Shown here: piece by piece, positions 28,191-40,428 of the stretch
Layout of the letters: every line of letters starts with the position of its first letter
Position numbering within the stretch: the stretch's first letter is position 1
Source of the DNA: an uncultured bacterium
Lineage (GTDB): Bacteria; Armatimonadota; UBA5829
Length of the DNA: 64,000 nucleotides
Reading direction: 5' to 3'
NCBI GenBank assembly: GCA_938074205.1
Contig: CALJES010000001.1
Location: 100,268 to 164,267 of the forward strand
Made by a program: the position numbers and the translations under genes
Notes under the pieces: model-generated
What the model was told of the DNA's origin: nothing
Seen by the model: the letters and a program-made list of their open reading frames with translations, nothing else
Database searches by the model: none

Positions 28191-29597
28191 CTAGTAGGAA
28201 ACAGACGTGACTATGCGAGGCGAAAGTAGTATGACAATTTCGGTTTGCTCACGTGTTCTCTTGGCATGTCGAAAGAGGTTTCCAATGAACGGTAGTTTCG
28301 AAAGGACAGGCAGCTTTGCCATATTAACAATCTCGCTATTTCGAAGTAGACCTCCAATTGCCAACGTAGACCCACTTTTCACAGAAACAGTTGTACGAGC
28401 CTCCCTAGTACTAATCTGTGGGTAGTCACCGGCTTGGGTCCGCAGGTACCCAGTTACCAGACTCACCTGGGGATACAAAGTGAGTACGATGTTATCTTCG
28501 CCAGCTATTTTCGGCGCGATTTGCAAGTAGATTCCTACCTTCTCCTCTGCTTTGTCGTATATGGGAGAGCCAATCTGGTTGTAGCCGACCAGCTTGGGAT
28601 ACAGAATGCGATCACCTATCAATATGTCCGCACACTCGCCGTCCAAGACGGAAATATTAGGCTGAGCGAGAAGATTAGCTTTTCCTTCCTTTATCATGAG
28701 CGAGAGCGTGCCGGTTATGCTCATTCCCTGTCTTGTGAACTTGCCGAAACCGATTCCAGACGGGTTAGACTCCGTAATCGCTATATTGCTCCAAGTCCAT
28801 TCGATACCCAGGTCTTTCGAACCTGAAGCGCTAATTTCAGTTACAGCAACATCAATAGCTACCTGCTTGCGAGGAATATCAAGCCTTTCGAGAACGCTCT
28901 TGGCATTGTCCACGGCTTGTTTGTCTCCGATCAACACTATCTTATTCGCAGTTCCGCGGGACGCGCCGCCGGACTGACCAGAACCGGTCGGCTTTTGCTC
29001 ACCGGTTAGTCCCCCTGCAGTAGGATCAAGTTCAGGAGTCGACGAACCCGGACCCTCCGCGCAAACAATTGAAGGAAATAATTTCGTGATAACGGATACC
29101 AGATCTGAAGACTTTGCATATTTGCAATCCCAAACGAGAACCTCAGTTGAACGAGCACTCACAGCGTCGGGGTTGTCCTGGTCATTGCCATCCTTGTTCT
29201 TTCTTGACGCCATTACTACATAAGTTCCGTTGACCTTGTCGTAGGTGAAGCCACTCACCTCTGCTAGGTAATCGAGGATAGCATCGAGAGGTAGCTGTTT
29301 CAGATGGGCATTCACCTGACCTGACACTTCAGGGCTGACTACAATATTTGCTCCAGACCGACGCGCCAATAATTCCAGAACTAGACGGATGTCTGTTCCG
29401 CTTGCATTAAGATCGTACAAATCAGCCTTATCGGCAGGCGCGACTACGCCTGCCGTTGAGTCATTAGAAGCCGATATACCGCTTGCTTCTGCCGCAAAAA
29501 AACTGCAATCAGCAACCCAACCTGCTACAATTCCTAGCAAGACTATCGGAAGATACTCCGCAATGAAAACCGATTTTTTCATCATTCTGTGAGACAT
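28191..29597 (-). CDS. Secretin (PilQ/GspD-like)
   Basis: 468 residues, short for the family. A signal peptide or anchor (about 8-35) leads to an STN/N0-like domain (about 60-130, D-I-R-L-V-L-E-L-L-A-R-R-S-G-A-N-I-V-V). A second N domain follows, interrupted by a Gly/Ser/Thr-rich loop (about 185-215). The C-terminal secretin domain has V-P-x-L-S-K-L-P-F-I-G-N-L-F and the closing I-V-I-L-L-S-P-R-I-V. It forms the outer-membrane pore. There are no AMIN domains and only two N domains before the pore. The gene lies 7 bp after the pilP-like gene. Confidence 0.93.
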   Translation of the reverse strand: MSHRMMKKSVFIAEYLPIVLLGIVAGWVADCSFFAAEASGISASNDSTAGVVAPADKADLYDLNASGTDIRLVLELLARRSGANIVVSPEVSGQVNAHLKQLPLDAILDYLAEVSGFTYDKVNGTYVVMASRKNKDGNDQDNPDAVSARSTEVLVWDCKYAKSSDLVSVITKLFPSIVCAEGPGSSTPELDPTAGGLTGEQKPTGSGQSGGASRGTANKIVLIGDKQAVDNAKSVLERLDIPRKQVAIDVAVTEISASGSKDLGIEWTWSNIAITESNPSGIGFGKFTRQGMSITGTLSLMIKEGKANLLAQPNISVLDGECADILIGDRILYPKLVGYNQIGSPIYDKAEEKVGIYLQIAPKIAGEDNIVLTLYPQVSLVTGYLRTQAGDYPQISTREARTTVSVKSGSTLAIGGLLRNSEIVNMAKLPVLSKLPFIGNLFRHAKRTREQTEIVILLSPRIVTSVSY

Positions 29598-32656: not shown

Positions 32657-32781
32657 AATGCTGGTAGAAGTCGTGCCTCGGTGTGATAAAGGCACCGTGA
32701 TGATTCGAAACTATGACCACATTTTTAGTATCGGCACTTCAATCGGAGGTAATTAGAAGCTACGAGAAAATAGGGGCCTAA

Positions 32782-38018: not shown

Positions 38019-38993
38019 CTAGCGCACAGGCTCCACTGCGTAGACGGAAGATGCCACCCCGTACGCCTTGAGCCCTACCCGACTCAAGCACTCGTAAAGT
38101 GCATCATCTGGAGTCGCTTGGTAGACTTGAGCATAACCAATCTGCTTGCCCAGGTTGCCCCAAGCTATTATTGCCACGCCGTAATCCTTGCAAATCTTGC
38201 GCAGCACATCGCTAACCGTAGCCTGTTCGATTTCGAAAGTCCGAGTCGCAGTGCGGCTCTGAAGCTTACTGGGTAGGAAGATGGTTTGGTACCTCCCCCA
38301 TTCCCCTATGCTCCAAGCAACGTGTACAACACGAACCGATCCGCTATGTGGAGCCGGCACTCTGATTTCCGACGGCTTATCCGCAAGCACGTAACCGCTG
38401 TACTTGGTCCCGGAGACGTCTATTTCAAATGCAGCCGGTTTGAGACTCTTGGTATGGAGTCTGAGTAAGTAAACACCCGGACTCTCGGTATCCAAGGTCA
38501 CAATCAATCCGGAACCGTTTGTCTTCTCCGGTGTCCAAGGCTTAGGCGCTCGAGCCGAATCTTGGTCTAAAGTGCTTATAGGAGTTTCAGCCGGCTTCTG
38601 CGCCCAGAACAAGCTAGCTATTCCGGTTCGCAAAGGAGGCAGAAACTGCAGACTCATTACGAACGCCACCAAGACGGCCAAGCCCACCGCCGCTACCCTG
38701 GCAGGCACGCGGATTGTGAACACTCTCTGCCAATCGAGCCTCCACCATCTAACGCGCGCAGGCACGCCTCTCTTTGCACTCTCAACTCGGGCCATCACTC
38801 CCGCCCGGAAACTACGCGGAGGCCCGACCTCAGGCAGACTCTCCATTATGCTGATCGCATATTTGAATCGTTCGTACGTGCGATTGCAAGCCTCGCACTC
38901 GGCAAGATGATGCTCCAGCTCTGTCCCTCGGCTGGCATCTATGGAGTTTTCGAAATAAGCGGAGAACAAATCCCGAGCTTTTTTGCAGTTCAT
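38019..38993 (-). CDS. Transmembrane anti-sigma factor with C-terminal STN-like domain
   Basis: 324 residues. The N-terminal zinc anti-sigma (ZAS/zf-HC2) motif H29-x3-C33-x2-C36 lies in the expected 36-residue helical cap. One membrane helix (about 98-118) puts the C-terminal 200 residues outside the cytoplasm. That part has an unassigned beta domain (about 160-240), then residues 251-322, which follow the STN/secretin-N0 plan: T-F-E-I-E-Q-A-T-V-S-D-V-L-R-K-I-C-K-D-Y-G-V, then P-D-D-A-L-Y-E-C-L-S-R-V-G-L and a final V-Y-A-V-E strand. It would hold the upstream sigma factor at the membrane and release it on an envelope signal. It follows the sigma gene by 108 bp. Confidence 0.85.
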   Translation of the reverse strand: MNCKKARDLFSAYFENSIDASRGTELEHHLAECEACNRTYERFKYAISIMESLPEVGPPRSFRAGVMARVESAKRGVPARVRWWRLDWQRVFTIRVPARVAAVGLAVLVAFVMSLQFLPPLRTGIASLFWAQKPAETPISTLDQDSARAPKPWTPEKTNGSGLIVTLDTESPGVYLLRLHTKSLKPAAFEIDVSGTKYSGYVLADKPSEIRVPAPHSGSVRVVHVAWSIGEWGRYQTIFLPSKLQSRTATRTFEIEQATVSDVLRKICKDYGVAIIAWGNLGKQIGYAQVYQATPDDALYECLSRVGLKAYGVASSVYAVEPVR

Positions 38994-39101: not shown

Positions 39102-39764
39102 TCACCCAAAAAGTTCCGGCTCGGATTCCAGCATTTCCGCGATTGCAAGGCGTGCTCTGTTTAATCTCGATTTAACCGTACCAATTGGCAAGTCGAGTAT
39201 TTCCGCGATTTCCTCATAACTACGGTGCTCCACGTGGTAGAGCGTAATGATAATCCTCTGGTAGTCTGGAAGTGCATTGATAACCCTCTGGAGCACGCGC
39301 ATTCTTTCCTTGGTTTGTAAGATCTCATCGGGACTCGGAGTAGAATCCTCGATCTGCCTAGTCACCGAGTTCTCCTCGAGCTCAATGGTGTCATCGAGTG
39401 AGATAGTAGGGTGAGATTTGTGTTTCTTTCGCTCGTCCAGATAAACATTGGTGACTATTCGGTAAATCCAGGTGGCGAACTTCGCATCGCCCCTAAAGGT
39501 CTGAATCGAATGAAACGCGCGTATGAAAGCTTCCTGAGCCACATCACAGGCGTCGTTGTAGTTACCGGTAACCCTAAGCGCATAGTTGAAAACGCGCTTT
39601 TCGAAACGCCTTACAATTTCGTCGAATGCAGCGGTATCACCTGACTTGCACCGCTCGATAAGAACATTCTCACCGAGCTGCTCATAATCGCCGAACGAAC
39701 CAGCTTTCGCTCCAGCTGACCTTTCAGACAAGTCGAAGCTCCTGACCGGCTGCCTAAGGCCCAA
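39102..39764 (-). CDS. ECF (RpoE-like) RNA polymerase sigma factor
   Basis: 220 residues. Region 2 is clear (F-D-E-I-V-R-R-F-E-K-R-V-F-N-Y-A, D-A-C-D-V-A-Q-E-A-F-I-R-A, F-A-T-W-I-Y-R-I-V-T-N), and so is region 4 (L-P-D-Y-Q-R-I-I-I-T-L-Y, S-Y-E-E-I-A-E-I-L-D-L-P-I-G-T-V-K-S-R-L-N-R-A-R). Region 3 is absent, as in ECF sigma factors. The start is uncertain: the longest frame begins at TTG 39764 and there is no ATG before region 2. It is followed by its likely anti-sigma factor, the standard arrangement. Confidence 0.92.
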   Translation of the reverse strand: MGLRQPVRSFDLSERSAGAKAGSFGDYEQLGENVLIERCKSGDTAAFDEIVRRFEKRVFNYALRVTGNYNDACDVAQEAFIRAFHSIQTFRGDAKFATWIYRIVTNVYLDERKKHKSHPTISLDDTIELEENSVTRQIEDSTPSPDEILQTKERMRVLQRVINALPDYQRIIITLYHVEHRSYEEIAEILDLPIGTVKSRLNRARLAIAEMLESEPELFG

Positions 39765-39808: not shown

Positions 39809-40327
39809 CTACGAAGACTCGCCGCTTCTGTCGGATTCCATTGCCCTCGAGAGAGCAGTTTTTTCTTCATCGGATAAAGCGAAGTCACTAGTTCCGTTGA
39901 CTATCCGCTTTGCATATACCCGCGAATCATGGCGGCCGTAAAGACTACTAAGAGCGAACCCGTTCCCCTTGCCATTAAGAAGCACCAACGCAAAACTCTG
40001 TTCGCCGCCGACATCTTCAAATGCGTCAAAACGAACTACACCGACCTTTTGAAGGCAGGAAGAGATGTTATCGGCGTGCTCAGCAAGTTTGGCACTTATT
40101 TCGTCGAGACGCGACTCCAACACGGAAATCGCTTGCGTCTGTTGTGCAAGGCAATCAATTATCTCCCCTACATTGCCGTCCGCAAGCTTTGTGTTGTAGC
40201 GCCGCCATAACGTAGCATGCTTACGCCACAAAGCCACCACGCACAGCGCCAAGATTAGACACAGAATCAATAGGCCTAGCACCAAGTAGATATCGTAAGT
40301 TCGAAGAAGACCAATTATCTCGCGCAT
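39809..40327 (-). CDS. DUF4446-like membrane protein
   Basis: 172 residues. One N-terminal membrane helix (about 13-36), a coiled region (about 60-90) and a C-terminal domain with V-R-F-D-A-F-E-D-V-G-G-E-Q-S-F-A-L-V-L-L and S-R-V-Y-A-K-R-I, the pattern of DUF4446, common in Firmicutes and neighbouring phyla. The function is unknown. The ATG at 40327 is used; the extra upstream codons begin with TTG. It is just ahead of the ECF sigma gene and may share its promoter region. Confidence 0.82.
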   Translation of the reverse strand: MREIIGLLRTYDIYLVLGLLILCLILALCVVALWRKHATLWRRYNTKLADGNVGEIIDCLAQQTQAISVLESRLDEISAKLAEHADNISSCLQKVGVVRFDAFEDVGGEQSFALVLLNGKGNGFALSSLYGRHDSRVYAKRIVNGTSDFALSDEEKTALSRAMESDRSGESS

Positions 40328-40428
40328 TTGCAAACACTACCCTCAGACTCTAAGGTTCTCCCTCGATTATACCACGCAATTCGCGGCCATGGTGGGCTCC
40401 TAATCTAGTCACACAATCAGACCATGCA

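Follow-up and report, generated by a model that had tools for sequence, protein, structure and literature searches.

A zinc-type anti-sigma factor of Armatimonadota that ends in an STN/N0 domain

Introduction

What does an anti-sigma factor perceive when its extracytoplasmic end resembles a domain of a secretin? This question is raised by a gene in a stretch of 64,000 nucleotides, hereafter the window, from an uncultured member of the Armatimonadota, a little studied phylum; the genome around the window measures 3.02 Mb and is 97.9% complete. A first-pass annotation of the DNA had read the product as an anti-sigma factor with a secretin-like STN/N0 end, and had taken it as known that the STN belongs to the receptor rather than to the anti-sigma factor. 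This premise is wrong, since both PupR (6OVM; C-terminal STN subdomain, residues 250-324 of ~325; PMC7186176) and FoxR (residues 248-328; PMC11637429) carry a terminal STN. The authors of the PupR study described the STN arrangement as previously unobserved and the CJM fold as novel (PMC7186176). Pairing of STN with STN is known from these systems, in which the STN of the regulator takes part in the contact with the STN of its partner (PMC7186176, PMC11637429), and FoxR is protected from proteolysis when it contacts the FoxA signalling domain, which is itself cleaved off (PMC11637429).

A C-terminal STN on regulators of iron uptake such as PupR and FoxR is already known. What is new here is an STN on a ZAS anti-sigma factor with a σE/SigW-type sigma factor, outside TonB cell-surface signalling. 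No description of the combination of ZAS and STN was found in the literature searched, with subscription titles mostly outside its scope, and searches on Armatimonadetes ECF factors and on DUF4974 or N0 domains with anti-sigma factors likewise gave no account of it.

The anti-sigma factor and its genetic unit

From the N to the C terminus, the 324 residues of the protein form a ZAS domain, a membrane helix, an Ig/FN3-like domain and an STN/N0 domain (Table 1). Residues C3, H29, C33 and C36 of the ZAS are invariant among 24 relatives and include an H-x3-C-x2-C motif; with this motif in a zf-HC2-type domain and an ECF sigma gene adjoining, the protein belongs to ZAS class I (zinc type). The closest solved structure in profile comparison is RsiW (5wuq, E 8e-10), and in the AF2 model the ZAS is N-terminal and helical. 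The flank of the membrane helix that faces the ZAS is rich in arginine. The ZAS motif and the single helix noted in the first-pass annotation are thus both confirmed. Outside the membrane, the linker is the least conserved stretch of the protein, and the juxtamembrane domain of the AF2 model matches Ig/FN3-like folds with VIA-align Z scores up to 6.8. Pfam and NCBIfam applied to the single protein named the ZAS alone, and neither FecR nor FecR_C gave a Pfam match at E values up to 10.

Table 1. Features of the anti-sigma locus in the window
Feature	Position	Strand	Basis
Anti-sigma gene	38019..38993	(-)	intact ORF, ATG start, 324 aa
Zinc-type anti-sigma core (zf-HC2, residues 3-36)	38886..38987	(-)	Pfam PF13490, E 8.9e-8
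Single membrane helix, residues 98-117	38643..38702	(-)	hydrophobic helix, AF2 model
Disordered extracytoplasmic linker, residues ~118-160	38514..38642	(-)	pLDDT <50 over 117-160 (AF2)
Juxtamembrane seven-strand Ig/FN3-like beta domain, residues ~161-243	38265..38513	(-)	AF2 strands 163-240
STN/N0 domain, residues 250-324	38022..38246	(-)	hhalign 97.2%; AF2 pLDDT 88.6; structure matches
Cognate ECF sigma factor, σE/SigW type	39102..39764	(-)	Sigma70_r2 + r4_2
DUF4446 protein, first gene of the unit	39809..40333	(-)	PF14584, E 2.9e-41
Putative extended -10 element (TGGTATAAT), housekeeping type	40366..40374	(-)	upstream of the unit

In all 23 loci compared, the anti-sigma gene directly follows that of the sigma factor, whose closest solved structures are RpoE (6jbq) and SigW (5wuq), and a DUF4446 gene precedes the sigma gene in 17 of them. 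The conserved unit is the sigma-anti-sigma pair, usually with DUF4446. In one genome (G020, L065:9895-12476) the ZAS-STN anti-sigma gene is duplicated in tandem behind a single sigma gene, and in genera g2 and g3 (L048, L050, L057, L058) the unit lies, as judged by eye, near FliG-like or flagellin-like genes and not near pilus genes.

Upstream of DUF4446 the sequence TGNTATAAT has its one occurrence in the window, and it stands in the same place in seven relatives of the family or order; because one chance match per window is expected, the evidence lies in the conservation. This conservation suggests that the unit is transcribed by a housekeeping-type sigma factor. Scanned in a simple way for GAAC-type ECF promoters, the regions that precede the unit and pilM had no motif in common, and no ECF-type motif emerged ahead of DUF4446.

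Identity of the C-terminal domain

Recognition of the C-terminal domain required the relatives of the protein, since the single window sequence gave an hhalign probability of 12%, which is not significant, and no Pfam STN hit. The domain profile, built from 24 relatives, was aligned with one representing 27 STN domains of Armatimonadota, mostly taken out of secretin-sized frames. The match reached a probability of 97.2% (pairwise E 4.5e-11) with a score of 58.7, as against 11.0 for the reversed profile, at most 17.5 for 100 column-shuffled decoys, and 8.9 and 8.5 for the ZAS and Ig regions of the same protein. This is the profile-profile comparison that the first-pass annotation had proposed, and it bears out the resemblance to a secretin STN/N0 domain claimed there; the alignment register given to the secretin of the window was also correct, as the profile aligns with it (28191-29597) at its residues 69-130 (pairwise E 4.9e-4). 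In a search of PDB sequences with the full-length profile, the same region matched the N0 domains of GspD (E 0.015) and PilQ (E 0.023), with FecA and HofQ ranking behind, while the STN-only profile gave no match below E 0.2.

The full-length AF2 model shows the strand and helix order of the STN fold, beta-alpha-beta-beta-alpha-beta-beta, over residues 251-322. Foldseek searches with the full-length model were filled by matches to Ig folds; the STN domain was therefore modelled alone (pLDDT 88.6), which solved the problem. The top match of this model was 4m0n, the anti-sigma factor BDI_1681 (Z 10.1, 76 residues, 2.2 Å), followed by FoxA (10.1), FpvA (10.0), PupR (6ovk, 9.7), PilQ (4av2, 9.3) and FecA (9.2), where rows one Z unit or less apart count as ties; GspD/XcpQ, injectisome secretins and relatives of phage Mu gp44 ranked lower. 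Structures of FecA, FpvA, PupR, PilQ and GspD thus all lie at Z 8-10, and with profile-level homology and fold in agreement the domain belongs to the STN/N0 superfamily: it is an STN/N0 domain. Its conservation is modest, with a mean pairwise identity of 35% compared with 49% for the ZAS, and the few invariant positions (L264, G272, A298 and Y318) look by eye like core positions.

That the domain is instead phage-baseplate-like or a chance resemblance is scarcely credible: the best Pfam hit of the domain alone, Gp44-like_2nd (E 1.2e-4), falls under the cut-off and was set aside, and it is no true rival because it shares the STN fold (3cdd and 1wru are among the structure matches), while the hhalign score far above the decoys, the gene context that marks the protein as an anti-sigma factor and the present structural model all speak against such a reading.

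Comparison with known regulators

The plan of the protein is that of PupR, FecR and FoxR: about 325 residues, a cytoplasmic anti-sigma domain, one membrane helix, a juxtamembrane beta domain and an STN as the extreme C terminus (residues ~250-324). Unlike in these regulators, the anti-sigma domain is ZAS/zf-HC2 and not of the FecR type, and the sigma factor is of the σE/SigW type; the juxtamembrane model is Ig/FN3-like, whereas PupR has the CJM fold. Of the marks of a FecR-type regulator, the STN behind a juxtamembrane beta domain is present, while FecR and FecR_C are lacking at the sequence level, and no TonB transducer gene with an N-terminal STN is linked to the unit or found in the genome. 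Given its ZAS, its type of sigma factor, the lack of a FecR match and the lack of an STN receptor, the protein is FecR-like in plan and not a member of that family.

The same C-terminal fold is found in BDI_1681 (4m0n/4m0h), a putative anti-sigma factor of Parabacteroides distasonis; that protein differs in coming from the Bacteroidota, with 12% identity over the domain, and the window protein has no FecR_C Pfam match. In the type of both ZAS and sigma factor the pair resembles RsiW/SigW of Bacillus subtilis and RseA/RpoE of Escherichia coli, with which it likely shares release by regulated proteolysis; neither RsiW nor RseA is known to have an STN domain. The STN/N0 domains of secretins (PilQ 4ar0/4av2, GspD 4jtm, LspD 7pmp) have the same fold and detectable sequence homology, but they are N-terminal in an outer-membrane channel, whereas the window STN stands on an inner-membrane regulator.

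Distribution, gene neighbourhood and candidate partners

Of 61 Armatimonadota genomes, at least 31 encode full-length relatives, defined as rows that extend to model position 320 or beyond, and these are spread across family, order, class and phylum. Since 60 of the 61 genomes carry secretins, co-occurrence with secretins at the scale of the phylum is uninformative; many of them possess several without a detected full-length fusion, for example G031 with seven.

In the window, a pilus operon encoding PilM, PilN, PilO-like and PilP-like proteins, the secretin mentioned above and GspE begins ~5 kb from the anti-sigma gene, its secretin lying ~8 kb away, and five unrelated genes intervene (GH123, pyrF, a sugar kinase, a TPR protein and a small membrane protein). 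Elsewhere this operon adjoins the unit only in the sister genome G002. No relative of the pilus or secretin proteins of the window lies nearby in 21 of the 22 further loci, several of them on short contigs, and at the remaining locus a secretin other than that of the window lies at a distance of ~4 kb. The co-occurrence with pil/gsp operons envisaged in the first pass is therefore limited to a neighbour in one sister genome; an operon link outside the genus was rejected on these absences, and a dedicated partnership between the anti-sigma factor and this operon is improbable. Upstream of pilM, two genomes share a conserved stretch, GAAGTGCCGATACTAAAA-TGTGG (window 32696-32781 (-); L046 16213-16317). 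Rfam found one tRNA across the window and nothing else.

The genus g5 (G006, G010 and G012; L145, L146 and L147) keeps the order DUF4446-sigma-anti-sigma. Its anti-sigma frame, of 147-164 residues, lacks both Ig and STN, and what is left is the ZAS, the membrane helix and a short tail. Its genomes hold one, one and no secretin, respectively, as against three or four in the members of family f1 with the full protein, except G007, which combines a full-length anti-sigma factor with one secretin, next to which lies a second STN frame, 318 residues long. The pattern of g5, seen in one lineage that the sigma tree leaves unplaced on long branches, fits a link of the sensor part to secretins or other STN proteins, to which it lends weak support.

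Only one TonB-dependent receptor passes the cut-off in the genome of the window (L045, G000:C15:71585-73324), and it gave no STN hit in this 97.9% complete assembly; by eye, it has an N-terminal carboxypeptidase-regulatory-like extension. As the sole clear receptor of this class lacks an STN, some other STN protein is the likeliest partner. The genome carries three secretins as well as free STN proteins, which are small and exported and contain a single STN with low-complexity or charged tails; both the latter and the N0 domains of the secretins are candidates. Among the single-STN proteins, L038 (G000:C12:146384-146518), L042/L044 (G000:C12:285295-285516) and L041 (G000:C3:151085-151279) begin with what resembles a signal peptide, carry one STN each and have tails that are either Gly/Tyr/Pro-rich or charged and helical; they are possible partners of the anti-sigma STN. 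L038 is encoded directly upstream of a 637-aa secretin, which is also the sole FecR_C hit of the genome. In G003 a relative of L041 (L048:8223-9059 (-)) lies ~1.4 kb from the anti-sigma gene, behind a FliG-like gene identified by eye. A site-2 protease homologue and HtrA-like proteases are present in the genome of the window.

Proposed mechanism and alternatives

The explanation that we consider somewhat favoured is that of an STN-tipped ZAS anti-sigma factor whose STN pairs with another STN/N0 protein of the envelope and thereby gates proteolysis. By analogy with RsiW and RseA, the ZAS would hold the σE/SigW-type sigma factor at the inner membrane. The Ig-like domain and the terminal STN, with fold and order on the PupR/FecR/FoxR plan, would act as the extracytoplasmic sensor, the STN pairing with that of a secretin ring or of a small exported single-STN protein. 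Presence or loss of this contact would decide cleavage of the anti-sigma factor by a site-1 and then a site-2 protease, freeing the sigma factor. This explanation is preferred because of the STN homology and fold, the ZAS and sigma assignments and the invariable sigma-anti-sigma pairing; because layout and length match PupR and FoxR, whose STN contacts that of the partner; because site-2 and HtrA-like proteases, several secretins and free STN proteins are present; and because the one clear TonB-dependent receptor lacks an STN and g5, without Ig and STN, has few secretins. Counted against it are G007, with the full protein and one secretin, G031, with seven secretins and no detected fusion, the loss in g5 as an event of a single long-branch lineage, and the modest conservation of the STN.

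It is rather unlikely that the STN and Ig domains form a folded shield without a specific STN partner, in which unfolding under stress would expose the site-1 cleavage site, as in a general sensor of the RsiW/RseA type. The core-like look of the invariant STN positions, the RsiW-like ZAS with its σE/SigW-type sigma factor, the proteases of the genome and the lack of a linked partner gene would all suit such a shield; however, the STN domains of the studied families are contact domains, and g5 retains the sigma factor and the ZAS without any shield of this kind.

Clearly improbable is the idea, which follows the first-pass annotation, of a secretin-assembly sensor reserved for the type IV pilus/secretion operon close by, in which N0 domains that are free or mis-assembled, or else PilP-like proteins, would bind the STN and trigger release of the sigma factor. 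The known pairing of STN with STN, the proximity of the operon in the window and in G002, and the secretin counts of family f1 (none or one without the domain, three or four in nearly all members with it) are in its favour. Against it, the operon is no neighbour outside the genus and 21 of the 22 further loci lack relatives of it nearby, G007 has the fusion but one secretin, the -10 on the sigma unit is of the housekeeping type and there is no common ECF-like motif upstream of pilM.

Implications

The C-terminal STN sensor of the FecR type is not confined to TonB signalling, as ordinary ZAS anti-sigma factors of σE/SigW-type sigma factors carry it as well across the phylum. The genus g5, which is without the sensor part alone, represents a natural deletion that can be used for testing its role. 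Following the preferred explanation of STN pairing one step further, contact with the N0 rings of secretins or with exported free STN proteins may gate a σE-type envelope response in Armatimonadota, so that the cell would read secretin assembly through an ECF sigma factor without TonB receptors; this extension is tentative and, on balance, unlikely. If the partner is indeed a secretin or a free STN protein, the anti-sigma factor would provide a direct route from the assembly of an outer-membrane channel to transcription.
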